From: Caldifarciminota bacterium | GTDB taxonomy: Bacteria > Hydrothermota > Hydrothermia > LBFQ01 > DSFT01 | Length of the DNA: 64,000 nucleotides | Direction: 5' to 3' | Assembly (NCBI GenBank): GCA_025060695.1 | Contig: JANXBH010000004.1 | Coordinates: 18,734-82,733, forward strand | Part shown: positions 15,794 through 62,219 of the stretch, one piece after another | Numbering within the stretch: the stretch's first letter is position 1 | Layout of the letters: each line of letters starts with the position of its first letter | The notes under the pieces: model-generated | Databases searched by the model: none | The model's input: the letters and a program-made list of their open reading frames with translations, nothing else | What the model was told of the DNA's origin: nothing | Made by a program: the position numbers and the translations under genes

Positions 15794-15803
15794 CTTTAAA
15801 ATT
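15794..15803 (+). promoter_or_regulatory. Box upstream of tRNA-fMet
   Basis: CTTTAAAATT, tRNA begins 15818. Confidence 0.55.
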
Positions 15804-15817
15804 ATAAAACATTCCAA

Positions 15818-15891
15818 CGCGGGGTGGAGCAGTCAGGTAGCTCGCCGGGCTCATAACCCGGAGGTCGAGGGTTCAAATCCCTCCCCCGCTA
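15818..15891 (+). tRNA. Initiator tRNA-fMet (CAT)
   Basis: Cloverleaf with unpaired C1:U72, three G:C pairs at base of anticodon stem (CCGGG CTCATAA CCCGG); no encoded CCA. Confidence 0.93.
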
Positions 15892-15894
15892 TGT

Positions 15895-15967
15895 GGTGGT
15901 GTAGCTCAGCTGGTAGAGCGGGGGTCTCATAAGCCCTGTGTCGGCGGTTCGAGTCCGCCCACCACTA
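15895..15967 (+). tRNA. tRNA-Met (CAT), probably elongator (tRNA-Ile2 not excluded)
   Basis: GGTGGTG TAGCTCAG...loop CTCATAA...GGCGGTTCGAGTCCGCC CACCACT A; no CCA. Confidence 0.85.
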
Positions 15968-15976
15968 TTAATCCAG

Positions 15977-16651
15977 TTGTTCTCAAAAACGAAGAAAAAA
16001 GTTATCTTGATTGATCCTGATAAGTGGAAAGAGGAAAAATTAGAAGTGGTCTGTAGATATATAAACGAAAACAATAATATAGATTTTATATTTGTAGGAG
16101 GAAGTATAATAAAAAGTGAGAATTTTCATACTATACTGAAAAAACTTAGATACTACTTGAAAAAACCAATAATACTATTTTGCGGAAGCTCATACCAAAT
16201 TAACGATATAGCAGATGCATTTCTAATTCCTTTCCCTCTAAATACCTATGACTACAATTACTTTCATATAGAACTTTTAAAGAACGCATTTTTAATAAGC
16301 AAAAAACCAGCATATATCTGTGGATATTTATTAATTGGAAGTCAATATACAAGTGCATATATAATTTCAAGAGCATACGATATATCAAAAAATAACGATA
16401 TAATTTTAGCATTTTTGAAATTTTCAGAAATTATGAAATTTTCAGCAATATACTTGGAAGCTGGTTCAGGTAGTTCAAAAACTATAGATATAGAAACAAT
16501 AAAACTTGTATCAAATGAAACTAAATTACCTATAATTGTTGGCGGAGGTCTAAGAGATAAAAATACAATAGAAGAGATTTTAAATTATGCGAATTACGTA
16601 GTTGTAGGTAATTATGTTGAGGAAAATCCAGAGTTTGTTAAAGAATTGTAA
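15977..16651 (+). CDS. Geranylgeranylglyceryl/heptaprenylglyceryl phosphate synthase family (GGGPS/PcrB)
   Basis: KVILIDPDKW...IFVGGS...YLEAGSGSSK...PIIVGGGLRDK...VVVGN; the track start (15938) lies inside the tRNA, so the start is revised to TTG at 15977. Confidence 0.85.
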   Translation: MFSKTKKKVILIDPDKWKEEKLEVVCRYINENNNIDFIFVGGSIIKSENFHTILKKLRYYLKKPIILFCGSSYQINDIADAFLIPFPLNTYDYNYFHIELLKNAFLISKKPAYICGYLLIGSQYTSAYIISRAYDISKNNDIILAFLKFSEIMKFSAIYLEAGSGSSKTIDIETIKLVSNETKLPIIVGGGLRDKNTIEEILNYANYVVVGNYVEENPEFVKEL

Positions 16652-23278: not shown

Positions 23279-25269
23279 TTCAGCGCTTTTTCAATATAGC
23301 CATTCCAAAAATCAATTCTATCATTCAAACCTTTCTGTTTAATCAAGTCCAAAAGCCTATTAAAAACTTTACTATCAAGATTTCTAAATAGCGAGCTTTC
23401 CAAATACGCAATAGCTAAATTTTCCATATTTTTCTTTATTAGCAAATCGGATAGAAGTAATATACCCTGAGAGAAAAGCTGTTTTAATCTTTCTCTTTCC
23501 GTATATATCCATTCCTCGTATAAATCGCCCTCAAGCAAGTCAGCACTATATAAATTAAATGCATGGATAATTTTAGATATTGAAGTTTCAGTCTCTTTAT
23601 AATATAGCGATATAGCGGACTTTATGGAATTTTCAAAATCTTGAATATCAATATAAAATCTTTCATCAGTAAAAAATCCATAGCTTCCTCCTGAACTTTT
23701 AATAACATCACCATCTACAAGTATTTTCCTTATATTACTAACTATGGTATGTAGTTTTTGAGTAGCTTTTCTTTTGTCATCCTCTGACCATAAATCCTCA
23801 AATATTCTTTCCTTTGGTATAAATTTATCTCTGTTTATTAGAAAATATTTAAAAACTCTTAAATTAATCGGCCTATCAAAGTCATCTTCGTATAAAGTTT
23901 TACCACTTATAATAATCTTCAACTTACCAAACGCATATATTTCGTATTTCAATATCTTCTTTAGTCTTGTTAAAATTTTTACACTTTTAATTTTATCAAT
24001 CCTTTGAAGCAAGTCATAGTCATCCATATATTCGTAAATATCCTTAATTTTAAAATCTTCTTCAAGATGGAACTTAACTATAAATTTCTTGAAGTTCTCA
24101 GAAACTTCTTTATTTCTTTCAACATACATTCTTATTACTGGTTTTATACTTTCAATAATTTCCCTATCTATGGTTTGATATAAAATTTCCTCATTTTCAA
24201 TTATCTTCAAAAATTCTTCATAAGCTTCATCTAATCTTTTACCGATAGCAAGCAAATAGCACTTATATATCATTGCTGACATTTTTTGATATTTAGATTT
24301 TGACATATTTATAACTTTTTGAATAAGGTTTATTGCTTCCTCTAAATTACCCTTCTTTTCCAGCAAAAATACCTTTGAAAATAGAAACTTTGCATTCTCC
24401 CTTCTTGATATTGATACTAATTTTTCATATTCATTTATCATATTTTGTGCCTTTTCCAATTGATTGTTTTTTAAGTAGTAAGAAATCAAGTAGTTTAGTG
24501 CATTAGTTTGATTTAAGTAATTGTTTGACATTTTAGCATAATCAAGAGCAGCTATTAAATCCTGAACATTTACAGTATTTTCATAGTGAGATACAAAATA
24601 TTTATATAGAAAATACCTTGAAAGTGCACTTAAAGAGCCAATTCTCTTTGAAATTTCGTATGCATAACTTAATCTTAAACGAGCTTCAGCAAATCGATAG
24701 CTCATAGCAAAAAATGCACTATTATACAAAATTAGTCCAAAGTAGTGGTTTAGATTACCATAGTTCTTTAGTTCAATTTCTAATCTAAGCAATATTTTCT
24801 TAAATTCTTCCTTCTCGTACATTACGTCTAAGTTCCTATAGTAAGTAGCATCCAATATGGACTTATATACAAACAAATTCTTACTTAGAGCAAAATTTAC
24901 AGCATTGTTGTATACGTCTTCTATCTCTTGAATTCTTCCTAACCTTACGAGGACATTTATTAGTAAAATATAGCTTTCAAGCTTTATATAATCCAACACT
25001 CTATCTGATGAAACTACTTCATATAGTATTTTCATAGCTTTTAATTCATCTAATTGATTGTATGCAATATATCCCTCTACAAACATAAAGTTATAGTCAT
25101 TTTTGTATTTATTTGCAATTATCTTACAACCATTAAAGTCATCTAAAAATAATAACAAACAGCACTTTACAATATCCGCTTCATAATCCTCTAAGTTATA
25201 ATTTCTTAAATTATTCAAAATTTCTCTATAATTTCCAACTTCAAATATTTGAGAGAACAAATTTTGCAT
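23275..25269 (-). CDS. TPR-rich protein with C-terminal SARP/BTAD-like winged-helix transcriptional regulator
   Basis: C-terminal ...RVFKYFLINRDKFIPKERIFEDLWSEDDKRKATQKLHTIVSNIRKIL... plus BTAD-like region; repetitive helical N-terminus. Confidence 0.8.
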   Translation of the reverse strand: MQNLFSQIFEVGNYREILNNLRNYNLEDYEADIVKCCLLLFLDDFNGCKIIANKYKNDYNFMFVEGYIAYNQLDELKAMKILYEVVSSDRVLDYIKLESYILLINVLVRLGRIQEIEDVYNNAVNFALSKNLFVYKSILDATYYRNLDVMYEKEEFKKILLRLEIELKNYGNLNHYFGLILYNSAFFAMSYRFAEARLRLSYAYEISKRIGSLSALSRYFLYKYFVSHYENTVNVQDLIAALDYAKMSNNYLNQTNALNYLISYYLKNNQLEKAQNMINEYEKLVSISRRENAKFLFSKVFLLEKKGNLEEAINLIQKVINMSKSKYQKMSAMIYKCYLLAIGKRLDEAYEEFLKIIENEEILYQTIDREIIESIKPVIRMYVERNKEVSENFKKFIVKFHLEEDFKIKDIYEYMDDYDLLQRIDKIKSVKILTRLKKILKYEIYAFGKLKIIISGKTLYEDDFDRPINLRVFKYFLINRDKFIPKERIFEDLWSEDDKRKATQKLHTIVSNIRKILVDGDVIKSSGGSYGFFTDERFYIDIQDFENSIKSAISLYYKETETSISKIIHAFNLYSADLLEGDLYEEWIYTERERLKQLFSQGILLLSDLLIKKNMENLAIAYLESSLFRNLDSKVFNRLLDLIKQKGLNDRIDFWNGYIEKALK

Positions 25270-25273
25270 ATTA

Positions 25274-25289
25274 CTTTAAAATTTTAAGG
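25274..25289. promoter_or_regulatory. Bidirectional promoter box
   Basis: CTTTAAAATTTTAAGG in a 22-bp divergent spacer. Confidence 0.7.
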
Positions 25290-25291
25290 CT

Positions 25292-27274
25292 ATGATACTA
25301 ATATTTACATTACAAATTATTACAAACAAAGAACCTCTAAGACCTTTTAAGGATACTTATGTAAATCCGAATAATCCATATGTTCAAATAGACAAACTAT
25401 ATTATCAAGGTAAATTCTCTGAATCAGCAAGCTTATATGAAAAAGAATTACCAAGAGCATATACTGATGAGCAAAAATTTAGAACACTTTCAGGACTTGC
25501 TTGGAGTTATATTGGTATTGGGAGATTTCTTGAAGCTGCGGACTACTTTGAAAGAGCATCAGTTCTTGCAAAACAACCTAATCAACAGCTTGAAATAAAA
25601 TTAGGTGTTTCATTTGTTTGGCTTTTTTCAAGGAGATTTGATAGAGCACTACAAAATGTAGAACTTGCAAAAAGTATATACATAACTGATAAAGAAGGAT
25701 TAGCACAACTACACTTTTTAGAAGCTTGTATATTCTGGGAAAGTGGAAATAGAAATAGAGCTGAACAAAAATTCAACGAAGTTTTTAACAATTATCCAAA
25801 TACACTATGGGGACAAAAGAGCTTATTGGTATTAGCAAAGGCATATATTCAAAGTGGTGAACAACAAAAGGGCATAGAATATTTAAATAAAGTAATTGAA
25901 AGGGCGAAGGACGAGGAAATAATAAGTCAAGCATCTTTATTACTATTTGATATACACATGAATGCAGGCAAGGTTGATGAAGCAATTGAAGCACTAACGA
26001 AAGTTATAGAAAATTCACCAAATACAGAAGTTTCACGACAAGCTGAAGCAAGAATAGCACAAATAGCTGAACAATATAGAAGCAGATTAATTACAAATGA
26101 TCATCTTCTAAGTAAAAGTAGAACTGCAGCCGTATTTATATTATACAATCCAGGTATAAGGGCATATTATAATAAGGACTACTTTACAGCAAAACCGCTA
26201 TTAGAAAAGTTTATAAAATTATATCCAGAAGATACACTATCACAAAGGGTTGCTATACCACTTTCAGCTATATACATAGATGAGAAGGAACTTCAAAAAG
26301 CGATAGATGTATTAAAATTAGTAAATTTAAATAGACTTGATAAGGAAAATCTTGAAACTGCACAATATTTCCTTGCTACTTCCTATTTAGGTATTTCAGA
26401 CTTTCAAAATGCTGCATTTTATTATTCTAAACTCTTAAATTCACAAAAATTTTCAAAAGAAGCAGAACAAAAACTATTAGCAATACTAAATCAATATCCA
26501 GAATATGTAAACTATTTACCATCAACTCATCCATTCTACAATAGAATATCTGCTATATCTTCTTTAAAAGCAGGTGATACACTTGGAGCTATAAATAGTT
26601 TAGAAAGATATCTTTCAAGCAATCCTAATGATACTATTGCACTTTTATCAATTATAGACCTTTCGTATAAGAAAAAAGACTACAATAGAACATTAAAATA
26701 TGCAAAACAGTATATAAGCAAAAATCTTCAAACAAATAGAGATATAATACTCTATATTGCAGGAGCAAGTGCGTATTCATTAAATTACTATGGAGAAGCA
26801 CTTGAATATTGGGACGAACTTTTAGCAAGTTATTCAAATAGTCAATTTTATGAAAGAGCTCTAAACTTCTCAAGACAACTATTAACTGAGAGACCAGAAC
26901 TATTTTCGTTAAATTTAAAAAGTCAGGCATTGCTAAAAGAAAAAGAATATCAAAAAGTTTATGATTTATTTAAGAGAAAAATGTATAACGAAGTAATAAA
27001 TGCACTCGCTAACGATAACTCTGAACAAGCATTACTATTAAAATCTCAAAGTTATTTAAATTTAAAGGACTATCAAAATGCATATCTTCATATTTCAAGG
27101 ATTACAAAAGAAACACCTGAAATAGCTTTTATAAAGGCTGAAGCACTTTTTGGGATGAACAAACTAAGAGACGCCTACATTTACTATAAAAAAGCATTAG
27201 AATCACAAAATCCACAAATACAAAACATAAGTCAATTAAGAATACAACAACTTGAAGCAAAAGGAATAAAATGA
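25292..27274 (+). CDS. TPR-repeat protein, putatively exported
   Basis: MILIFTLQIITNKEP; repeated TPR-like helices. Confidence 0.75.
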   Translation: MILIFTLQIITNKEPLRPFKDTYVNPNNPYVQIDKLYYQGKFSESASLYEKELPRAYTDEQKFRTLSGLAWSYIGIGRFLEAADYFERASVLAKQPNQQLEIKLGVSFVWLFSRRFDRALQNVELAKSIYITDKEGLAQLHFLEACIFWESGNRNRAEQKFNEVFNNYPNTLWGQKSLLVLAKAYIQSGEQQKGIEYLNKVIERAKDEEIISQASLLLFDIHMNAGKVDEAIEALTKVIENSPNTEVSRQAEARIAQIAEQYRSRLITNDHLLSKSRTAAVFILYNPGIRAYYNKDYFTAKPLLEKFIKLYPEDTLSQRVAIPLSAIYIDEKELQKAIDVLKLVNLNRLDKENLETAQYFLATSYLGISDFQNAAFYYSKLLNSQKFSKEAEQKLLAILNQYPEYVNYLPSTHPFYNRISAISSLKAGDTLGAINSLERYLSSNPNDTIALLSIIDLSYKKKDYNRTLKYAKQYISKNLQTNRDIILYIAGASAYSLNYYGEALEYWDELLASYSNSQFYERALNFSRQLLTERPELFSLNLKSQALLKEKEYQKVYDLFKRKMYNEVINALANDNSEQALLLKSQSYLNLKDYQNAYLHISRITKETPEIAFIKAEALFGMNKLRDAYIYYKKALESQNPQIQNISQLRIQQLEAKGIK

Positions 27275-31105: not shown

Positions 31106-33255
31106 TACCTTGGTCTTATTCTAAAAACCACTTTATTTCTTGTTTTACCATTAACAGTAATTGCAACTAAGTAAATACCAGGTTTTAACTTGGAAGTATT
31201 GTAAAATACTAATCCCTTTTTCGTTGTATAATTTCTCTCGTAGTATATTCTATCTATGTATCTTCCCACATCATCATATAGATAGATATAAATGTTATCA
31301 CTTTCGTCTTTAATATTAAACGCAAAGTGAAGTATTTCTCCCTTTGCAAGGTCTTTCTTATTTACAACAATTTCATCACTATCAGTTATATAAATATCAT
31401 TTTCCTTACCAGGTGTACCATTTATAGTTGCAGATGGTCCCCAAGCACTTCTTGTCCAGCCCCTCTCATCTTTACTTACTCTAATAGTCGTATAAGGATG
31501 TCTTCCTCCCCAATATGAATCGTACCATAGTGAATCCACCGCAAAACCCATCTCAGTAGATATAACCATAGGTTGTTGAGAATTTAAGTAGGTCCACTTT
31601 GGAAGCGCAATGCAATTACTTAAGTTATATCTTTGACAGATATTATTTTGAAAAGTATCGTATACAAAAACAAAAATACCATTTGGCTCCAATTCAATAT
31701 TCGGAAAGACAGAACTTGTATAGATATTAACACCAGAATAACTCTTTACAAATAAATTTCCAATATTTACCTTATAGGGACAGAAATTCTTAATTTCTAT
31801 AAATTCTTCAACTGTTGGAAAATCATCAAATTCATTTATAAGAACACAGCTAAAGCCGTTAGGATATGGAAGTCTAAACTTAATTAAATTTGTATCATTG
31901 TTATATACTATGCCAAGAACAGCGTTATAAAAGCCCCTCTCTAAACTATTTAGTCTAATCATAAATTGAAAGCTATCAACATTAAAAATAGTAGTATCAA
32001 AATTCAAATTAGATACAGAAAATAAGAGTTTTACGTCGGAATTTGGATTAAACTTTTTTCTAAACTTAAATGTTATACCATCACCGTACCCATAGTTTAT
32101 CTTTTCAAGTCTATATGGAAAGTCATGGATATACACACTATCAGCATATATTCTATACTCTCCAAATTCATATACCAAAACTCCCCACACTGAAACAATA
32201 TCATTTTCCTGCAAGTTTTGAACGTTATATTTTGATAAGTATGCACTTAAATTACCGTTTTTTATAGTATACCTATAATTATGAGAAGCATCCACTATAA
32301 CAGCTTTTCTTATGAAAATATATACACCTTCATATCTTTCGGCAGTAGTTGGACTTGAAGAACTAATAGAGTCAGTTATAAGTGTATCAACTTTAAATGA
32401 AACATTCTGAGAAATAACTTGAATATTTGGATTTGTAATCTCAGTATATTTGTAGTATTCTTTCACTACACCACTAACTATGACTGAATCTCCTTTAGAA
32501 TACCCTGCAATATTTGTAGTATAAACATAAATTCCAGAATAAGGACCACCGTTTTTCATTTTAATGTGAAAACCTCTTCCATTATATTTACCCACTTCAG
32601 CAATAATACCTGTTGTAGTTATCGTTTGCCCAGAAAATATAGAACTATCAGTATTTGGATAAACAGCTTTTTGAATACTATCTATCGGAATATATGAAGG
32701 AGGAGGATTTCCTTGTTTTATACCAACGAAAATAGAGTCTATATTGAAATATGAATTAGAACTAACAGTTGCATTTGTATTATCTATGAATATCCATCTT
32801 ATGTATATAGATAAGTTTTGATATGAGGAGACATCAAATTGAACCTTTTTATTCTGATTATTTGCATTTGTAAAGAGTGTAGTTGAATCCCATACTATGA
32901 GGTTATTCCAATTATTTCCATCTGTTGATATTTGAACTTTTATGGTATCAGTGCTCCTAAACCTCGTATCAAACTGACCTCCAACCGATGGAAGTCTATA
33001 GTAAAATGAAAAAACTATGGTATCATATGGATTTACTGAAGGTAAATTTATTAATGGTGTTTGAAGTATTGCAGTTCCCACTTCAGATGATGTTTGTGCT
33101 ATTTGAATACCTGCAGATGCACTACCAAAAACTACTCCGCTTGTTCTTCTTACCCACTTTGTATTTCTTGTTCCTACATTTTGCCAATTAGAAGGTGGAA
33201 AATTGGGAGATTCAAAGTCTTCATAAAAAAATTGAAAAACAAAAATTGTTAGCAT
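31105..33255 (-). CDS. Secreted surface protein: beta-jelly/OB-fold/lamin-tail-like domains, T9SS-like C-terminal domain
   Basis: MLTIFVFQFFYEDFES; SCVLINEFDDFPTVEEFIEIKN; C-term LKPGIYLVAITVNGKTRNKVVFRI. Confidence 0.7.
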   Translation of the reverse strand: MLTIFVFQFFYEDFESPNFPPSNWQNVGTRNTKWVRRTSGVVFGSASAGIQIAQTSSEVGTAILQTPLINLPSVNPYDTIVFSFYYRLPSVGGQFDTRFRSTDTIKVQISTDGNNWNNLIVWDSTTLFTNANNQNKKVQFDVSSYQNLSIYIRWIFIDNTNATVSSNSYFNIDSIFVGIKQGNPPPSYIPIDSIQKAVYPNTDSSIFSGQTITTTGIIAEVGKYNGRGFHIKMKNGGPYSGIYVYTTNIAGYSKGDSVIVSGVVKEYYKYTEITNPNIQVISQNVSFKVDTLITDSISSSSPTTAERYEGVYIFIRKAVIVDASHNYRYTIKNGNLSAYLSKYNVQNLQENDIVSVWGVLVYEFGEYRIYADSVYIHDFPYRLEKINYGYGDGITFKFRKKFNPNSDVKLLFSVSNLNFDTTIFNVDSFQFMIRLNSLERGFYNAVLGIVYNNDTNLIKFRLPYPNGFSCVLINEFDDFPTVEEFIEIKNFCPYKVNIGNLFVKSYSGVNIYTSSVFPNIELEPNGIFVFVYDTFQNNICQRYNLSNCIALPKWTYLNSQQPMVISTEMGFAVDSLWYDSYWGGRHPYTTIRVSKDERGWTRSAWGPSATINGTPGKENDIYITDSDEIVVNKKDLAKGEILHFAFNIKDESDNIYIYLYDDVGRYIDRIYYERNYTTKKGLVFYNTSKLKPGIYLVAITVNGKTRNKVVFRIRPR

Positions 33256-33286
33256 ATCCTAAATTTTAAAGTAAATTAAATTTAGG

Positions 33287-33296
33287 TTTAAAATTT
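33287..33296 (+). promoter_or_regulatory. Leaderless-type box for fabD
   Basis: TTTAAAATTT, ATG at 33303. Confidence 0.6.
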
Positions 33297-33302
33297 GTAA
33301 AT

Positions 33303-34184
33303 ATGAAAACAACCTTTATGTTCCCTGGACAAGGTTCTCAATATGTAGGCATGGGAAAGGAATTATATGATAATTACGATATTGCAAAAGAGGTCTTTAA
33401 GAAAGTAAAGAATATTTTAGGTGATAACTTTTTAGAAATGGTATTTTATGGTAGTAATGAAGAATTAACTAAAACGGAAAATGCACAGCCTGCTATATAT
33501 GCAGTATCAGTAGCTTCCTTAGAAGTAATAAGAGACAAAAATTTATATAGTGCGGATATTTGCTTTGGTCATAGTCTGGGAGAATTTACAGCTTTATATT
33601 GTTCGGGCGTATTTAGTTTTGAATATGGACTAAAACTAACAAGAATTAGAGGAGAGATTATGTCAAGTGCAAAAAAAGGTTCTATGGCAGCAGTAATTGG
33701 GTTAGATGAAACGAAATTAAAAGAAATAATCTCAAAATACGACAATTTGGTAATTGCAAACTACAACTCGCCTGAGCAACTTGTAATATCAGGAGATATT
33801 AATGAACTAAAAACAGTAGTAGAAGAAATTAAAAACCATGCAAAACGAGTAATTCAACTAAATGTATCGGGGGCATTCCATTCACCATTAATGGAAGAAG
33901 CATCAAGGGAATTTTCAAAATATATAAAAAAGGAAGAATTAAACGAACCCAAAATACCAATTATTTCAAATTCAACAGGAGAGATAGTATACAATTTAGA
34001 TAGTCTATATGAGGCACTAATTAAACAATTAAGAAGTCCCGTTCTATTTACAAAAATGGTAGATAATGCATTTAAGTTCGGTGTAAGAAAATTTATAGAA
34101 ATAGGACCTTCAAAAGTTCTTTCAGGATTAGTAAAAAGAATACTAAAAGACTATGAAATTGAGATACTTAATTTTGGTTCTTAG
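33303..34184 (+). CDS. fabD: Malonyl-CoA:ACP transacylase
   Basis: MFPGQGSQYVGMGKEL; FGHSLGEFTAL; SGAFHSPLM. Confidence 0.95.
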   Translation: MKTTFMFPGQGSQYVGMGKELYDNYDIAKEVFKKVKNILGDNFLEMVFYGSNEELTKTENAQPAIYAVSVASLEVIRDKNLYSADICFGHSLGEFTALYCSGVFSFEYGLKLTRIRGEIMSSAKKGSMAAVIGLDETKLKEIISKYDNLVIANYNSPEQLVISGDINELKTVVEEIKNHAKRVIQLNVSGAFHSPLMEEASREFSKYIKKEELNEPKIPIISNSTGEIVYNLDSLYEALIKQLRSPVLFTKMVDNAFKFGVRKFIEIGPSKVLSGLVKRILKDYEIEILNFGS

Positions 34185-35151: not shown

Positions 35152-36129
35152 TTCAAAGAACAAGCCAAGTATAAATAGATAACCAAACTTCTTATTATGG
35201 TCAAACGCAAAGGCTACATACCAAAGCGGCCAAGCGCTTTCAGGATAATTTTCAGGTCTCTCAGATGGTTTCGGCTTAAGATAGACCAATAGAACTCTAC
35301 TAAAGAACCAATATAAACCTAAAAGCGTGACTAACATCGTAAACTTGAAAAATCCAACCATCACCAGATAGACAACAAGAATATATTGAAGTAGCATTAT
35401 TATGATATTTATAATTCTCGCATTTTTCTCCCCTACTATTACAGGAAAAGTCCGAATACCCTTTGATTTATCCTCATGATATTTATCTATATGTTTTCCA
35501 AAGAGAACACTTGTAGCTCCAAGACTATATACAAAACTCATTAAAATAACACTTAAATTCCACTCATTTGCAACTACATAGTATCCACCACCAATCATCA
35601 AAGGTCCCCAAACTATCAAAACACTTGGCTCTCCAAGCCCAATATACTTTAAAGGATAAGTATAAAATAAAACAAAGAAAGAACCAATAAGAACAAGAAT
35701 AAGAGCAACTATACCTTTTGTAATAATAAAGTAAAGTGCCACCGCTAATGCCAAAATACCAGTAATAACAACATACTTTAAAAATTCATCCTTTGACATT
35801 AAACCATGCTCCAAAACATGCGGTCCATACTTCGCCCTAAAGTAATTATCTTTATCTACTCCCTTAATATAATCAGTATAGTCATTTAACATATTATTCA
35901 AAGCATGTGCCAAAACTAAACCTATAGTCAACATTACCCAGTCCAAGAGATTGAACTTATTATTTAAATAAGCAAGAATAGCAACTATAATAGCTGGAAT
36001 TATTGTAATTACGAACACTGCAGATCTTGTAAGAACTAACCATTTAGATATAAAATCGAGCTTCTGCCACTCCTCTTTTTCTATTCTTGGTATTACTTTA
36101 AGCGCTTTTATCCAAAATGTTATGTTCAT
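35131..36129 (-). CDS. UbiA-family prenyltransferase (MenA-like)
   Basis: NMLNDYTDYIKGVDKDNYFRAKYGPHVLEHG; polytopic. Confidence 0.85.
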   Translation of the reverse strand: MNITFWIKALKVIPRIEKEEWQKLDFISKWLVLTRSAVFVITIIPAIIVAILAYLNNKFNLLDWVMLTIGLVLAHALNNMLNDYTDYIKGVDKDNYFRAKYGPHVLEHGLMSKDEFLKYVVITGILALAVALYFIITKGIVALILVLIGSFFVLFYTYPLKYIGLGEPSVLIVWGPLMIGGGYYVVANEWNLSVILMSFVYSLGATSVLFGKHIDKYHEDKSKGIRTFPVIVGEKNARIINIIIMLLQYILVVYLVMVGFFKFTMLVTLLGLYWFFSRVLLVYLKPKPSERPENYPESAWPLWYVAFAFDHNKKFGYLFILGLFFELLYKLF

Positions 36130-36136
36130 ATTAATG

Positions 36137-36147
36137 AAATTTTAAAG
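36137..36147 (-). promoter_or_regulatory. Leaderless-type box for UbiA gene
   Basis: CTTTAAAATTT, ATG at 36129. Confidence 0.6.
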
Positions 36148-36188
36148 TTAAAAAATTTTTCAAAATATAGAACTATAAAATTTCAGTG

Positions 36189-45250: not shown

Positions 45251-46498
45251 CTACAGTAATACTCTATAAAATGGAAATTGGTTAGTCAGTTCCTTAACTA
45301 AGCCTTTTGCCCAAGATTTTGTCCTATCATCTTGGTTTTTTATAACTTTTGCTATGATTTTTCCAACAAGTCTTAACTCCTCCTCTTTCATTCCTCTTGT
45401 GGTTAAAATAGGTGTTCCTATTCTAATACCACTTGTAACTGTTGGCTTTTGGGGATCAAATGGTATTGTGTTTTTATTAACTGTTATTCCTACTTCTTCA
45501 AGCAATTTCTCTGCTTCCTTTCCAGTAATACCTAAATTTCTTAAATCTACTAAAACTAAATGGTTATCCGTTCCTCCTGACACTAATCTAAGACCTTCCT
45601 CCATTAAGCTTTCAGCGAGAGCCTTAGAATTCTTCACTATTTGCATTGCATACTCCTTAAATTCGGCTTTCATTGCCTCCTTAAATGCAACCGCTTTTGA
45701 AGCTATAACGTGCATAAATGGACCACCTTGAATACCCGGAAATACATTTTTATCTATCTTTTGAGAAATCTCTTGGTTATTAGTTAATATCATACCACCT
45801 CTTGGACCCCTTAGCGTCTTATGCGTAGTAGTAGTAATAACGTGAGCATAATCTTTTGGAGATGGATGGACATTGCCAACTATTAGACCTGCTATATGAG
45901 CTATATCAGCCATAAAGTATGCATTTACCTCATCCGCAATTTCTCTAAATTTTGCCCAATCAATAATTCTTGGATAGGAAGAATAACCTGCTATAATTAA
46001 TTTTGGCTTATACTCCCTTGCAAGCTTATAAACTAAATCAAAGTCAATAGTTTCGGAATTAGGATTTACACCGTAGTAAATTACATTATAAAACTTTCCA
46101 GAAAAGCTTACCTTTGCTCCATGGCTTAAATGACCTCCATGAGAAAGTTCCATAGATAGGATAGTATCACCAACTTCTAAAAGCGAAAAATAAACCGCCA
46201 TATTAGCTTGACTACCTGAGTGAGGTTGAACGTTGACATATTTAATATCAAATAATATTTTTGCTCTTTCTTGAGCTAATATTTCAGCTTGGTCAACAAA
46301 TTCACAACCACCATAATATCTCCTATTAGGATAACCTTCCGCATATTTATTATTTAAAGGCGTTGCCATAGTTAATAAAACAGCCAAAGAAGGATAATTT
46401 TCAGATGCTATCATTTCAAGTGTTTCCTCTTGCCTTTTAATTTCACCAATAATAACCTCATATATTTGAGGGTCTAACCTTTTAATTATTTCATACAT
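45251..46498 (-). CDS. glyA: Serine hydroxymethyltransferase
   Basis: [39 protein letters not shown]. Confidence 0.96.
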
Positions 46499-46501
46499 AA
46501 T

Positions 46502-46533
46502 AAAAATTTTAAAGTTTTTTCACTTTAAAATTT
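46502..46533. promoter_or_regulatory. Back-to-back divergent boxes glyA / htrA
   Basis: AAAAATTTTAAAG (minus) and CTTTAAAATTT (plus). Confidence 0.65.
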
Positions 46534-46539
46534 GAAACT

Positions 46540-47997
46540 ATGAGAAAAAAACTTTTAATAGTCGCATCCCTTATTGGACTTGGCATAGCTGTTGGGATGT
46601 TGATTAGTTCAAATTTAAATATTTTCAACAAAGCGGTAGCACAAAGTCAAACAATTCAAACACCACAAAAAGTTCTATCAGAAATACAAGTTGGATTTAC
46701 ACAAATAGCAGAAGCAGCTATTCCAAGTGTAGTTAATATATCAGCAATTGGAAGAACAACAAGAAGAACACCAAGCGAATTTGAAGAACTTTTTAGGAGA
46801 TTCTTTGGAGAGGAGTTTGAATTTCCATTTCCTGAAGTACCAAGAAGTAGTTTAGGTTCTGGTTTCATATTTAGAAAAGAGGGGAAAACCTATTATGTAA
46901 TGACAAACCACCACGTTATAAAGAATGGAGATAAAATTAAAATAACCCTGAGTGATGGGACTAACATAGAAAACGTAAAAGTAGTAGGAGCGGACCCAAG
47001 AACTGATATAGCGGTATTGAAATTTGAAAGTAGTAAAGATATACCTGTATTAAAACTTGGAAATTCAGATGAGGTAAGAGTTGGGCAGTGGGTAATTGCT
47101 ATTGGAAGCCCATTTGGACTATCTTCAACCGTCACAGTAGGAGTAATAAGCTCTATTCATAGGAAAAACATAGCTTTGCCAGAAGGACCAGATTATCAAG
47201 ACTTTTTACAAACTGACGCAGCAATCAACCCCGGTAATAGCGGAGGTCCTTTGCTTAATATAAATGGAGAAGTAATAGGAGTTAATACCGCAATAGCAAC
47301 ACCAACAGGCGTATTTGCAGGCATAGGCTTTGCAGTGCCTATAAACCTTGCAAAGAATATTACAGAACAACTAATAACAAAAGGTACAATAGAAAGAGGT
47401 TATCTTGGTATAAGGATTCAAGATGTAACACCAGAATTAGCTCAGGCAATAGGACTACCAGAGCAAGGTGGTGCATTAGTAAATCAAGTTATAAAAGGTG
47501 AAGCAGCTGACAAAGCAGGAATAAGGGAAGGTGATATAATTCTTGAAGTAGATAAGAGAAAAATAAAGGATGCAAATGATTTAAGATTATATATAGGTTC
47601 ATTGCCACCAGGAAAAGAAGTTGAGTTAAAGATATATAGGGATAAAAAATATATAACTATTAAGGCAAAACTTGGGAAAATGCCTGAAAAGATATCTCAA
47701 ATACCAAGTGAAAGAGAAAGTGAAACTACTAGTTCAGATACAGCTACATGGCTTGGCATGACAGTAACAGAAAAAAATAATAGAGTAGTAGTAATAAACT
47801 CACAAGATAAAGCGCTTGAAATAGGCATAAGACCAGGAGATGTTATTATAAAGATAGGAGATATTGCCATAAATTCACTGAGAGACTTTATTGAAGCAAA
47901 AAAAAGATACGAAAAATCAGATAGACCTATTTTAATAGTAGTAGAAAATGGAGGAATTAAGAGATTCCTTGCTATAACACCTATACAGACTCAATGA
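46540..47997 (+). CDS. HtrA/DegP-type periplasmic serine protease
   Basis: NHHVI, AVLKF, NPGNSGGPLL; two PDZ-like regions. Confidence 0.95.
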   Translation: MRKKLLIVASLIGLGIAVGMLISSNLNIFNKAVAQSQTIQTPQKVLSEIQVGFTQIAEAAIPSVVNISAIGRTTRRTPSEFEELFRRFFGEEFEFPFPEVPRSSLGSGFIFRKEGKTYYVMTNHHVIKNGDKIKITLSDGTNIENVKVVGADPRTDIAVLKFESSKDIPVLKLGNSDEVRVGQWVIAIGSPFGLSSTVTVGVISSIHRKNIALPEGPDYQDFLQTDAAINPGNSGGPLLNINGEVIGVNTAIATPTGVFAGIGFAVPINLAKNITEQLITKGTIERGYLGIRIQDVTPELAQAIGLPEQGGALVNQVIKGEAADKAGIREGDIILEVDKRKIKDANDLRLYIGSLPPGKEVELKIYRDKKYITIKAKLGKMPEKISQIPSERESETTSSDTATWLGMTVTEKNNRVVVINSQDKALEIGIRPGDVIIKIGDIAINSLRDFIEAKKRYEKSDRPILIVVENGGIKRFLAITPIQTQ

Positions 47998-49504: not shown

Positions 49505-52500
49505 CTATTTTACAATTATAGTCTTAAATTCCTTAGTTAAATTATCAACCCTAGCTCTTATTAGATATGGACCTTTTGGTAAACTACCTAAGTCAAATCT
49601 GACATAACCTGCCTTGTAGTTTGAATTTATACCAAAAACTAATCTACCTGAAATGTTATATACCTCAAGGGAAATTTTTGCCTCTACTGGGAGAGCGAAA
49701 GTTAATACATTATTATTATATACAATATCAAATTTCTTTGGAATATCAACTAAACTTACTGCTACAATAGGTATCTTAGTTGTATCAGTTATTCTTACAT
49801 TAGTAGACTCATCAGCAACTTTGAAATAGAAGAATAAAGTGTCATTAGCCATTAATCCAGTTATACTAAGATTATAAACAAAAGTATCAGGATTAATTAC
49901 GTTATCTTTAGACTTGGATAACCATGAATTTAGTAAGGTTCTATAGTAAATCGTATCGTATTTGATAGGTGAGAAATCTTGAAATACTGCTTTTACCTGA
50001 GTATTTAGATTAGGACCAACTATATTGAAGTTAAATGTATCCGCATAAATCTTTCTTGGAGCTCTAATATCATAAATAGTAAAAGCTGAAACATATGGAG
50101 ATGAGCCAGCAGTATAGTTTGCTCTAATTCTATAATATTTAACATATTCGCTATCAGATGGCAATATGTGTTTATAAGTAGTAGTGTTTATATTTGCTAT
50201 AGTTGCTATTACTGACCAATTGTTATTATCAGATGAATATTCAACTTGATATGATTGAAATGCTAAAATTTGATTATCATTTTTCTTTAATAAAGCTGGT
50301 GGATTCCATACTAATACTACGCTATCCAAGTCCCTATAACTAACTTGAAAGTTAAGAGGTGCATTTAAAACGTCATATTCATATACAAGCTTTGAGGTAT
50401 TGGAAGTATTCGCTGGACCATATACACCGTAGTTCAATTTATGTGCTGTAAAGTATACTTCAAATGAATCTTTCTTATAACTTGCAGGCTCATTTACAGG
50501 TATTGCAATATGGAAAAAGTATCCGTCTGAATTAGATGAGTCATAGACCGCTTGAACTTTAGTCCAAGAACCGACGCCAAAAGGCCTATAGTATCCATAT
50601 ACTCTTAAATCTGAAGCACTTGATATACTTGGATCATTTACTCTTACTACTGCTTTAAATATGTCAGGTGAACTTCCATCCACTGCTAAGTTATATGAAC
50701 TATTGTATGCTTGAACTTCATTTAAGCAAGTAGAAACAGGAATAAAGTTATGTATTCTTCTAAATATAGTATCTACTCTTGTCTGTCCATCTGCATCATA
50801 AGTTGCAACGTAGTTTATAGCAAATGAACCAAAAATTGAATAATATCCTATTCCATTGTAAAATACACTTGCAATTGAAGGATTAGCAGGATTAGCAATA
50901 GTTGAGTCTCCATTCTTCACATACAATATAGCAACTGATGTATTCTCGTCTCCTGCTGGATGAACTCTAATATCATCAGGATATACATCGTTTGTATAAA
51001 TTTGATAAGTCATATCTCCAAAAATTGGTCTATTAGTTATTCCAAGTATTGTATCTGAAACATCCGATGCACCAGTCCAATCATCACTTACGTATCTAAA
51101 GTGTAAATAGTTTCTTGTAAATATAGTGTCTCTATCAGTTGCACCTGACCTATCGTGGAAATATCCAAAGTCATTTCCAAACCATACTAATGATTTCCTA
51201 TTAGCACAAGTTCCAAGGTCTAAATAAGCTCTTATCTTATTTCTTTTTAAAGCACTTGTGGAGTTTTGATGCCAATATATTCTGTCCCAAAGCCTTAGAG
51301 AATCTAACCATACTAAGGAATCTGGTGGAAGTAATAAATCAGGTTGTAAGTCTATATTATTTCTGAAAAATGCAAATCTTATTCTTTCTTCATCTATAAA
51401 TTCTCTTTTCTGAGCAAATTTTGCTGTCGGCATTATATTATATATATACCAATTATTCGGAGCACCTGAAGGAATATAATTAACAAGATTAGAAGCATCT
51501 GTACATTTAATATAGTAATTTCCTCTCAAACCTCTATCAGTATGAGGTATAATATAAACGAATGTATCTGGATAAATGTTTGGATTTGCATCACTTAAAG
51601 TCATATTGTATTCAGTAAATGGTCCACTTGGTGAATTTCCTTCCTGATTTGGATTTATAACATATCTATAACCAACTTGACAACTTACATTTGGTAAATT
51701 TTCGGGATCACTTGCAATTATCCTAATTGTATCAGGAATACCATTATAGAAATGATAAACAGCTCCTTTTAAAAGAGAAATAGAAGGTGGTAAATCTCTT
51801 ACCGTTGCTCCAACTGTTGCAAAATCATCTACATATAGTCTTAAAGCATTACGTGCCTTATATCTTATAGCAACATATACAGTATCATTAACTACAGCAT
51901 TAACAGGTCCTCTTAAGTCATATGCTGTATAAATATAAGGTGTTCCAGTTGTCCCTGTTCTTGGATATTTGGTATCTAATCTTATTCCTGAGTTTATAAA
52001 ATCAGAAGGTGTTGGTGGATTTGCCTGATTGTTCCATTTTATAATATAAACATCGAACGAGTCAATAAAACCTGTCGATTGTGAAAGATACCAAAAGCTA
52101 ATTATACTCGGTGAAATGTATATTCTTGGAGACCTCAAATAAGCATAACCCGTAGTACTTCCTGTTTCAGTATATGCAAACCCTGCGCATGCTGTTGTAG
52201 TTTCAGTAAATGGACATGCACTAGTCCTCCTTTGCCATCTTCTCGTAGTAGTTGAAGTGGTTGTGTCATATCCTGCACTTAAAAATATAGTACCTGCAGT
52301 CCAGCTTTCAAGCAAGAAAGTATATTGATCATCTATAATGCTAAGTGAGTCAATATTAAAATAGTTAATTGCAGCATCTGCTGTTGACTTGTTATCATAA
52401 AATGCAAATCTTATATGAGTAAGATTTTGTGGAACAGATAAAGTTACCCAAACAGGATTAGTGTTTGCTGCACCATCCCATTGCCAAATTCTAGTCCAAG

Positions 52501-52990
52501 TTGCACCACCATCTGTTGAGATTTCAAGATTCAAGGAATCACCTGTATTCATATTAGTAGCTGTAGAGGTTCTATACGCAAATCTTATTTGAGGATTACT
52601 TAAAGAGACATTCCGTATTATAAGACCTGGTGTCACAAGCCAGTCATTATTAGTAAGAGCATCACCTTCATATAGCACTGAAGCACAAGCAGGAGCAGTT
52701 CTACAGTTAGTAGTATATCTTATCCACATTTGAGTGCCATTATCTTGATTATATACACTCCATCCTGCTGGTGGAAATGCTGTTCCAGTAAAGCTTTCAT
52801 TTAGTGGAGAGCTTAGTATAGAAAAGTCATGGTTGGGTTTATAGTATATTTGATATTGTGGTTGAAGGTTCGTTCTGTACTCAATTTCTCTACCTTCTAT
52901 TTTCTGGGATTTTATACACTCTGACCTCTTTTCTAAATCAGATATACCCGCACACACATCGTTTAGTTTAGATATTAGCAAAATTTCCAT
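49505..52990 (-). CDS. Large secreted surface protein (MAM/choice-of-anchor-like N-term, FN3-like domains, T9SS type A-like sorting domain)
   Basis: SFTGTAFPPAGWSVYNQDNGTQMW; NISGRLVFGINSNYKAGYVRFDLGSLPKGPYLIRARVDNLTKEFKTIIVK. Confidence 0.78.
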   Translation of the reverse strand: MEILLISKLNDVCAGISDLEKRSECIKSQKIEGREIEYRTNLQPQYQIYYKPNHDFSILSSPLNESFTGTAFPPAGWSVYNQDNGTQMWIRYTTNCRTAPACASVLYEGDALTNNDWLVTPGLIIRNVSLSNPQIRFAYRTSTATNMNTGDSLNLEISTDGGATWTRIWQWDGAANTNPVWVTLSVPQNLTHIRFAFYDNKSTADAAINYFNIDSLSIIDDQYTFLLESWTAGTIFLSAGYDTTTSTTTRRWQRRTSACPFTETTTACAGFAYTETGSTTGYAYLRSPRIYISPSIISFWYLSQSTGFIDSFDVYIIKWNNQANPPTPSDFINSGIRLDTKYPRTGTTGTPYIYTAYDLRGPVNAVVNDTVYVAIRYKARNALRLYVDDFATVGATVRDLPPSISLLKGAVYHFYNGIPDTIRIIASDPENLPNVSCQVGYRYVINPNQEGNSPSGPFTEYNMTLSDANPNIYPDTFVYIIPHTDRGLRGNYYIKCTDASNLVNYIPSGAPNNWYIYNIMPTAKFAQKREFIDEERIRFAFFRNNIDLQPDLLLPPDSLVWLDSLRLWDRIYWHQNSTSALKRNKIRAYLDLGTCANRKSLVWFGNDFGYFHDRSGATDRDTIFTRNYLHFRYVSDDWTGASDVSDTILGITNRPIFGDMTYQIYTNDVYPDDIRVHPAGDENTSVAILYVKNGDSTIANPANPSIASVFYNGIGYYSIFGSFAINYVATYDADGQTRVDTIFRRIHNFIPVSTCLNEVQAYNSSYNLAVDGSSPDIFKAVVRVNDPSISSASDLRVYGYYRPFGVGSWTKVQAVYDSSNSDGYFFHIAIPVNEPASYKKDSFEVYFTAHKLNYGVYGPANTSNTSKLVYEYDVLNAPLNFQVSYRDLDSVVLVWNPPALLKKNDNQILAFQSYQVEYSSDNNNWSVIATIANINTTTYKHILPSDSEYVKYYRIRANYTAGSSPYVSAFTIYDIRAPRKIYADTFNFNIVGPNLNTQVKAVFQDFSPIKYDTIYYRTLLNSWLSKSKDNVINPDTFVYNLSITGLMANDTLFFYFKVADESTNVRITDTTKIPIVAVSLVDIPKKFDIVYNNNVLTFALPVEAKISLEVYNISGRLVFGINSNYKAGYVRFDLGSLPKGPYLIRARVDNLTKEFKTIIVK

Positions 52991-53209: not shown

Positions 53210-53225
53210 CTTTAAAATTTTAAAG
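53210..53225. promoter_or_regulatory. Bidirectional promoter box upstream of tRNA-Leu
   Basis: CTTTAAAATTTTAAAG 3 bp upstream of tRNA-Leu. Confidence 0.6.
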
Positions 53226-53228
53226 CAT

Positions 53229-53311
53229 GCGGGAGTGGCGGAATTGGCAGACGCGCCAGATTTAGGATCTGGTCCCGATAAGGGGTGAGGGTTCAACTCC
53301 CTCCTCCCGCA
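53229..53311 (+). tRNA. tRNA-Leu (TAG)
   Basis: GCGGGAG...CCAGA TTTAGGA TCTGG, long variable arm, GAGGGTTCAACTCCCTC, CTCCCGC A; no CCA. Confidence 0.95.
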
Positions 53312-53312
53312 T

Positions 53313-53936
53313 CTGAAACTTGTAATTTTTGACTTTGATGGGACTATATTTGACACATCACTTGGTTTAACACTCTCTATAAACGAACTATTAAGAAGAT
53401 ATAAACTGCTTGAACTAAACTCTAAAGAAGTAAAAAAGATTATCGGTGGCGGTATAGAACTAACCTTAAGAAGGATTTTTAATGAAAACTTCAAAGAGGA
53501 ATTAATAGAAGAATTTAATGAAGTTTACAAGAATTTCATGCATGAAGGACTTAAACCATACGACAATGTAATTAATGTGATAGAAAAACTTAAAAAAGAG
53601 AAAGGTTTCATTGTAGTAATTTATACAAACAAATCAAAAAACTTTGTAATTGATATCTTAAGAAAGTTCAACATATTAGAATTTTTTGATGAAATTATAA
53701 CTATTGATGATGGATTTAAAAAACCAGATAAGGAAGCTATTGACTATTTAGAAAGGACATACAATATAAAAAAAGAGAATATGTATATTATCGGAGATAG
53801 TGAGTTTGACATACAAACAGCAAAAATTTCAGGTATTAAGAGTATTTTCGTAAATTGGGGATTTGGAGAAAATATTGGAGCAGACTTTGAAGTTAATGAA
53901 CCTTATGAGATATACGAAATACTAAATTCAAAATAG
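53313..53936 (+). CDS. HAD-superfamily (phosphoglycolate-phosphatase-like) hydrolase; start CTG
   Basis: In-frame extension of track ORF 53538 gives (M)KLVIFDFDGTIFDTSLG...; DFDGT motif is absent from the track ORF; in-frame TGA at 53286. Confidence 0.85.
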   Translation: MKLVIFDFDGTIFDTSLGLTLSINELLRRYKLLELNSKEVKKIIGGGIELTLRRIFNENFKEELIEEFNEVYKNFMHEGLKPYDNVINVIEKLKKEKGFIVVIYTNKSKNFVIDILRKFNILEFFDEIITIDDGFKKPDKEAIDYLERTYNIKKENMYIIGDSEFDIQTAKISGIKSIFVNWGFGENIGADFEVNEPYEIYEILNSK

Positions 53937-61031: not shown

Positions 61032-61043
61032 AAAATTATAAAG
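61032..61043 (-). promoter_or_regulatory. Leaderless-type box for parA (TATAAT variant)
   Basis: CTTTATAATTTT, ATG at 61027. Confidence 0.6.
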
Positions 61044-62124
61044 CTATAGTTTCATGTGAAACCATTTCTTTTATTTTTAAAAAATTCATACTTTCTTTTT
61101 GATATGACAAATTAGACATAAAATAGTTAAGAACTGATGGATTTTGTATAATAAACTCTGTATATCTAACGAGTTGTTTAAAATTTTTCGCAATAAATCC
61201 AAGACCATGCTCTTTTATAAATCTTTCATTACCTTCCTCTTGACCAGGCAAGCTTTTATAGTAAATCGCAGGAGTTTTAGTATATATTAGTTCAGTTAAA
61301 TTTAAACCACCTGCTTTTGCAACTGAAAAATCACACAAAAACATAAGTTTGTGAATATCTTCAGTAAAGCCAAACAGTTTAAAATCATATGTATTTAAAT
61401 CTATAAAAACCTCCTGTAGCTTTTCGTAGTTCTTCTCATTCCTTCCTGCAATAACAAGAAAGTATAATTTTTTACTAAACATTTTTATATATTTTATTGC
61501 ATCCCTTAGTGGTAGAACACTATTAGAACCAAGATTTAATAGAACTATTAAATTTTTAGTATGAATATTAAACTCCCTTCTTAGTGCATTTTTGTCTATT
61601 TCTTCTAAAAATCCTTTTCTTAAAGGAATTCCAGTAATCATGTAGTTTGATGATTTAAGGTCTTTGACAGAATACTCAGAGGGCAAAAAATACATATCTA
61701 CAAAGTTATTTATCCAAATTGGATGAACTTCATAATCTGTTATACATACGAATAGTTTTGTACTTTTATTTTCAAGTTTATACTTTGCCCCATAGAGTGT
61801 AGAGAGAAAATGTGTAGAAATTATAATGTCTGGTCTATAATTTTCAAGTATACTATATACTTTCTTATTTATGAACGAAGTAAGTATAGATTTTATTATA
61901 TTCAGCCTTGTAATGGGATTATAATAAATTAGTCTCCATAGAAAGTGCGAATGCTTGCTCATCCAGATATAAAACTTCGATGTTATTTTCTCAATATATC
62001 CACCTTTTTCAACAATATCCAATAACAAAACATCATTACTATTCCCTATCATCTGTTCTATTGCTTTTGATGCAATTAAGTGCCCTGTCCCGTAATTTGC
62101 AGTGATAATAAGAATTTTCTTCAA
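61036..62124 (-). CDS. MGDG synthase/MurG-like glycosyltransferase; start TTG
   Basis: KKILIITANYGTGHLIASKAIEQ; SVAKAGGLNLTELIYTKTPAIYYKSLPGQEEGN; track start lies inside tRNA-Val. Confidence 0.85.
   Translation of the reverse strand: MKKILIITANYGTGHLIASKAIEQMIGNSNDVLLLDIVEKGGYIEKITSKFYIWMSKHSHFLWRLIYYNPITRLNIIKSILTSFINKKVYSILENYRPDIIISTHFLSTLYGAKYKLENKSTKLFVCITDYEVHPIWINNFVDMYFLPSEYSVKDLKSSNYMITGIPLRKGFLEEIDKNALRREFNIHTKNLIVLLNLGSNSVLPLRDAIKYIKMFSKKLYFLVIAGRNEKNYEKLQEVFIDLNTYDFKLFGFTEDIHKLMFLCDFSVAKAGGLNLTELIYTKTPAIYYKSLPGQEEGNERFIKEHGLGFIAKNFKQLVRYTEFIIQNPSVLNYFMSNLSYQKESMNFLKIKEMVSHETIAL
61049..61062. promoter_or_regulatory. parS-like ParB binding site
   Basis: GTTTCATGTGAAAC; one central change from the core of the canonical TGTTTCACGTGAAACA, immediately upstream of parAB. 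Confidence 0.75.
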
Positions 62125-62126
62125 AA

Positions 62127-62199
62127 TGGGCAGTGGAGGATTCGAACCTCCGACCTCTCGCATGTCAAACGAGCGCTCTAACCCCTGAGCTAACTGCCC
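62127..62199 (-). tRNA. tRNA-Val (GAC)
   Basis: GGGCAGT TAGCTCAG...CTCGT TTGACAT GCGAG...CGGAGGTTCGAATCCTCC ACTGCCC A; no CCA. Confidence 0.95.
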
Positions 62200-62208
62200 G
62201 AAGTAATG

Positions 62209-62219
62209 AAATTTTAAAG
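62209..62219 (-). promoter_or_regulatory. Box upstream of tRNA-Val
   Basis: CTTTAAAATTT, tRNA begins at 62199. Confidence 0.6.

Follow-up and report, generated by a model that had tools for sequence, protein, structure and literature searches.

Bacterial tRNA genes can be transcribed together with protein-coding genes, as in the E. coli operon thrU-tyrU-glyT-thrT-tufB, where tRNA and mRNA are carried in one transcript. To our knowledge, all tRNA-mRNA operons of this kind have an SD leader between the tRNA and the gene. In animal mitochondrial genomes, tRNA punctuation was described by Ojala, Montoya and Attardi in 1981, as cited in PMC5203842, and the start codons are AUG, AUA and AUU (PMC5203842). 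Promoter-made leaderless genes have been reported in bacteria (Zheng 2011, PMC3160421) and in mycobacteria, where CTG and TTG are ineffective starts in leaderless reporters (PMC4633059). Finally, tRNA 3' end cleavage has been mapped in Propionibacterium acnes, which has no obvious tRNase Z (PMC3848588). We found no bacterial precedent for a layout of the tRNA-punctuation type in the open-licence literature.

Here, we describe such a layout in a stretch of 64,000 nucleotides (the window) from the genome of an uncultured Caldifarciminota bacterium (G000). The genomes compared include a second species of the same genus (G001), a sister genus (G002), which belongs with G003 to the family of the window, and a member of another family of the same order (G005).

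The junction of tRNA-Leu(UAG) and the HAD gene

A tRNA-Leu(UAG) gene of the window lies one nucleotide upstream of a gene for a HAD phosphatase, and the following features were assigned to this locus:

53213..53218, + strand: -10-like box TAAAAT, 10 nt 5' of the first tRNA base (read from the sequence)
53229..53311, + strand: tRNA-Leu(UAG), CCA not encoded, discriminator A53311 (ARAGORN, Rfam and sequence)
53312..53312, + strand: 1-nt spacer T, the predicted leader upon 3' cleavage (sequence)
53313..53936, + strand: HAD phosphatase gene with CTG start, 207 codons (HAD_2 profile; ATG at the aligned codon of the congener)

The acceptor stem consists of seven perfect pairs (5' GCGGGAG at 53229-53235, 3' CTCCCGC at 53304-53310); Rfam ends the tRNA at 53311, and ARAGORN bounds it at 53228-53313. 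Upstream of the CTG at 53313-53315, the HAD frame contains a TGA (53286-53288) followed by eight codons (GGG TTC AAC TCC CTC CTC CCG CAT), none of which is ATG, GTG or TTG. The first canonical start of this frame in the ORF list is an ATG at 53538, 75 codons late. The first-pass annotation had already given the tRNA end at 53311, the in-frame TGA at 53286, the CTG at 53313 and the 75-codon error, and every one of these coordinates holds on direct reading. The 207-aa product matches Pfam HAD_2 (E 2e-38, profile position 1 at residue 4), and this profile together with an N-terminal DxDGT motif places it among the HAD superfamily phosphatases.

That CTG is the only plausible start, as was also proposed, is borne out by the lack of any ATG, GTG or TTG before the DFDGT motif and by the second species of the genus. 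Its junction reads CTCCCGC-A-TT-ATG-AAA-CTT-CTT-ATT-TTT-GAT-TTT-GAT, and the two proteins are 64% identical from their first residues. The tRNA-Leu/HAD abutment is present in this congener with ATG, not CTG, as the start, and since the same tRNA is followed there by TT-ATG at exactly the aligned codon, CTG is supported as the start codon of the HAD gene, which qualifies as CUG-initiated in having no upstream canonical start and a CUG aligned with an orthologue's AUG. The pair is also kept in the sister genus, with 19 nt between the tRNA and the ATG. This synteny was supplied by whole-genome relatives; a search of contigs of relatives for the HAD gene returned remote homologues alone (22-33% identity), useless for synteny. 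A start at the ATT of codon 5 was considered and rejected: the protein would lose its first beta strand, and it is the CTG position that carries ATG in the congener.

tRNA genes and start codons across the genome and its relatives

The genome contains 43 tRNAs, of which 36 are run ends. Setting aside two doubtful ones with no convincing downstream gene (L120 and L152) and five that face an opposite-strand gene leaves 29 co-directional cases. By hand count, a start codon lies 0-9 nt 3' of the discriminator at 26 of these 29 (median 2.5 nt). The remaining three comprise tRNA-Arg-CCG and tRNA-Gly-CCC, where the gene has its own promoter box 15-25 nt 3' of the tRNA, and tRNA-Ile-GAT, which is followed by a long leader with an SD. 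The 26 junction starts are ATG (12), TTG (10), CTG (3) and ATA (1), and among the 79 bases of their leaders there is a single G, and no SD is present; leaders so short and free of SD would imply initiation of the leaderless type, provided that cleavage takes place. Many of the abutting genes are housekeeping genes, and the list includes Ndk, L19, L31, L33, lactate/malate dehydrogenase, PRPP synthase, glycine cleavage P protein, an HMGL-like lyase, an OmpH-like protein and NifU. When the frame is started at the tRNA, the Pfam match of most of these proteins begins only a few residues from the N terminus.

An automatic count, scoring the junctions at which the first ATG, GTG or TTG of the downstream frame is at most 9 nt from the tRNA, gave 20/31 in G000, 22/31 in G001 and 14/24 in G005, compared with 6/41 in two genomes of the phylum that are more distantly related (Fisher p 1.5e-5 for G000 and 1.3e-6 for G001). 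The hand count is set beside it because the automatic one misses CTG and ATA starts and short ribosomal genes. The same layout and many of the same gene pairs recur in G001. In G002 and G003, by contrast, the automatic count is no different from that of the outgroups, and the trait is therefore uneven within the order. The tRNA-HAD junction is thus confirmed, and it belongs to an arrangement that is shared across the genus and partly across the order. In G005, four junctions (L219, L237, L238 and L243) consist of a tRNA, some 5-8 consecutive T and an ATG, as if terminator and leader had been fused. The doubtful L120, on contig C56 of G000, departs from the rest of the genome: this tRNA-Met seems to have its CCA encoded, and no coding frame that scores lies 3' of it. 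The contig is possibly foreign or misbinned.

The three tRNA loci of the window share one design, with a start codon 0-9 nt 3' of the tRNA; the first-pass annotation had described it for tRNA-Leu and had overlooked it at the other two:

62211..62216, - strand: -10-like box 5' of tRNA-Val (sequence)
62127..62199, - strand: tRNA-Val(GAC) (ARAGORN)
61036..62124, - strand: MGDG-synthase-like glycosyltransferase, TTG start, 2 nt (TT) after tRNA-Val(GAC)
15797..15802, + strand: -10-like box 5' of the tRNA-Met pair (sequence)
15818..15891, + strand: tRNA-Met(CAT), first of the pair (ARAGORN)
15895..15967, + strand: tRNA-Met(CAT)-type, second of the pair and run end (ARAGORN)
15977..16651, + strand: PcrB-family gene, TTG start 9 nt 3' of tRNA-Met

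The TTG and the 2-nt leader of the glycosyltransferase are conserved in G001.

Some gene pairs are kept across genera with a different spacer. Between tRNA-Gly(GCC) and L19, a 37-nt spacer with GGGAGGTG 5' of the ATG is found in G002 and G003, whereas the genus of the window has 3-4 nt and no SD. Between tRNA-Trp and L33, an SD is present in G002 and G018, and G000 has TTT-ATG. The two spacers measure 32-37 nt in G002, and both genes are SD-led there. Across the loci in question (L099, L111, L142, L140, L196 and L257), the pairs are retained, SD-led in some genera and abutting without SD in others. These sequences are most simply read as loss of the spacer with its SD, as far as the tRNA end, from gene pairs that were themselves retained; such a loss would be understandable if the mRNA has its 5' boundary at the tRNA end.

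Proposed maturation of the tRNA and the 5' end of the mRNA

We consider tRNA punctuation, in a bacterial form, to be the best explanation of the abutment, and hold this with moderate confidence. A promoter directly 5' of the tRNA would produce a single precursor spanning the tRNA and the protein gene; at the HAD locus, the TAAAAT at 53213..53218 is likely to serve both. Endonucleolytic cleavage at the 3' end of the tRNA, or immediately beside it, would then mature the CCA-less tRNA and free an mRNA with a leader of 0-9 nt (1 nt for HAD). The cut tRNA would pass to the CCA-adding enzyme, which is encoded in G000 (PF01743), CCA being encoded in 2 of the 43 tRNAs, and the freed mRNA would be translated by the leaderless route that already serves promoter-made mRNAs. 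In the predicted fold, the region 3' of tRNA-Leu is unpaired, which favours this model; against it, A53311 and T53312 are paired with the tRNA 5' leader, so that 5' trimming of the tRNA might have to precede the 3' cut.

RNase Z is the usual enzyme for the tRNA 3' cut. However, no protein exceeds the cut-off of the RNase Z model in G000, G001, G002, G005 or G018, draft genomes that are mutually consistent in this respect, which leaves the usual cutting enzyme in doubt. G000, G001 and G002 yield a generic metallo-beta-lactamase-fold protein far below the cut-off, and G005 and G018 yield nothing. The only match to the model, L306, was rejected as an RNase Z, as general metallo-beta-lactamase-fold models score higher and its nearest PDB chains are PqsE; L306, L307 and L310 are metallo-beta-lactamase-fold proteins of the lineage, none of them at the cut-off. 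Likewise, RNase E/G gave no match over the family cut-off in the draft genomes G000, G001, G002 and G005. The earlier proposal that tRNA 3' maturation generates a leaderless mRNA is therefore strengthened by the genome-wide abutment and the many promoter-made leaderless genes, and weakened on the side of the enzyme. A broader suggestion, which we put forward tentatively and think somewhat less probable than its converse, is a lineage-wide shift in which a sizeable set of housekeeping genes would be expressed from leaderless mRNAs cut from tRNA-mRNA precursors by a tRNA 3' endonuclease other than RNase Z and RNase E/G, with tRNA and mRNA synthesis coupled and CUG, UUG and AUA acting as efficient leaderless starts.

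The lack of a recognised RNase Z would also suit compaction alone, in which tRNA and gene share a promoter and nearly all spacers of the genome were lost, the uncut tRNA-mRNA precursor being translated through standby binding or 70S scanning with no processed 5' end. Short spacers are indeed found throughout, and divergent genes are 22-56 nt apart. However, the start codon stands against a stable acceptor stem in the predicted fold, with no SD, the tRNAs need cutting free in any case, and the loss of SD spacers is confined to places where start and tRNA end adjoin. We consider compaction without processing unlikely, though the strongest of the alternatives.

The start codons at other junctions bear on the punctuation reading and on the HAD start itself. 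CTG starts are conserved in G000 and G001 for RdgB/Ham1 (3' of tRNA-Tyr) and for a Wzy_C-domain protein (3' of tRNA-His), as is the ATA start of a family 2 glycosyltransferase (GT2; 3' of tRNA-Val(UAC)), the three proteins being 55-64% identical between the two species. For RdgB and GT2, the stretch from the in-frame stop to the assigned start is free of canonical starts in both species; for the Wzy_C protein, the corresponding stretch contains a single in-frame GTG in G000, which falls within the tRNA, and none in G001. RNA polymerase favours a purine at +1. A processed 5' end would be exempt from this preference, and UUG, CUG and even AUA starts could then be tolerated, as such an end need not begin with a purine. 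Pyrimidine starts are found at 13 of the 26 tRNA junctions versus 2 of 19 promoter-led starts (p 0.009, a small sample), as expected if the mRNAs made at junctions are not subject to the polymerase's preference. For the HAD gene alone, the CTG might stem from faulty base calling or from a recent mutation weakening the gene: the congener has ATG here, and the genome from which the window comes is a draft of about 95% completeness in 77 contigs. Nevertheless, the frame is unbroken and conserved over 207 codons, and CTG occurs at two more junctions of the genome, where the second species conserves it. We judge such an error or mutation improbable; base-calling error comes into question only at the HAD CTG.

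Promoter-made leaderless genes are well represented in the window. Of the 56 starts, 19 have a TAAAAT whose end lies 4-13 nt upstream, with a peak at 7-9 nt and about 1 expected (positional test on listed ORFs), and the motif occupies this position in 13 of 21 operon-first genes. A recognisable SD precedes 8 of 35 operon-internal genes, so that both initiation routes exist. A -10-like motif is found within 40 nt 5' of 32 of the 43 tRNAs, most commonly about 7-17 nt from where the tRNA begins. A short promoter of one kind thus appears to serve tRNA genes and many protein genes alike, transcripts beginning at the first functional base or close to it, and the organism probably translates leaderless mRNAs as a matter of routine. 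A promoter-motif scan 5' of any scored ORF start was not separable from control motifs, because AT-rich coding sequence yields many matches; the positional test on listed ORFs succeeded. Four divergent pairs, 22-56 nt apart (25269-25292, 33255-33303, 36129-36186 and 46498-46540), have on each side a TTAAAAT-like box 7-11 nt 5' of the start, and each is made up of two putative leaderless promoters placed back to back. An exception among operon-first genes is a large secreted-looking protein of 1161 aa (49505-52990, - strand), with an SD (gggaggag) 5' of its ATG.

Start sites of the genes' own, inside or near the tRNA 3' end, would give primary leaderless mRNAs with no part for tRNA processing, and although promoter-made leaderless genes are common in the genome and several tRNAs of G002 are followed by a separate box (e.g. 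TATAATTTCCCC-ATG), we find this very improbable, since the -10 position at abutting junctions is acceptor or T-arm sequence with no TAAAAT, and the genes that do have a box, after Arg-CCG and Gly-CCC, carry it 15-25 nt beyond the tRNA. At the HAD gene, an independent TSS inside the tRNA had been named as a threat to the proposal, and no -10-like motif is present at the tRNA 3' end. The usual -10 position (~7-12 nt 5' of the start) is occupied by the acceptor stem, and HAD is therefore not an ordinary promoter-made leaderless gene.

Comparison with described systems

If tRNA punctuation is true of these bacteria, the supply of tRNA and mRNA would be coupled, a processed (monophosphate) class of leaderless mRNA is predicted, CUG and AUA would be available as natural, directly testable leaderless starts, and start-site misannotation would be explained. 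It also raises the question of how CCA-less tRNAs are matured, and by what nuclease, where neither RNase Z nor RNase E/G is recognisable in the lineage. In this respect, the genome resembles P. acnes, where tRNase Z is not evident either; the passages on P. acnes draw no link to downstream mRNA 5' ends (PMC3848588).

Compared with tRNA-mRNA operons of the E. coli type, the spacer and its SD are gone here, and the layout is genome-wide. Like promoter-made leaderless genes, of which the genome has many with a nearby -10 box, the junction genes have no SD and a start codon at or near the presumed 5' end; unlike them, they have no -10 box at the junction, and their 5' end would arise by processing. 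The poor performance of CTG and TTG in mycobacterial leaderless reporters counts against the punctuation model, and because those reporters reject both codons, their use here would be informative.

The likeness to animal mitochondria lies in tRNAs that directly adjoin open reading frames, so that tRNA excision would leave little or no mRNA leader, and in an AUA start, used here probably once. The differences are a bacterial genome in 77 contigs with many promoters, SD-led genes alongside, CUG and UUG starts, and no recognised RNase Z. The anatomy is that of mitochondrial tRNA punctuation, and the processing step is predicted. Leaderless mRNAs are usually seen as products of transcription starts, and tRNA punctuation as mitochondrial; the genome-wide abutment in a bacterium joins both.
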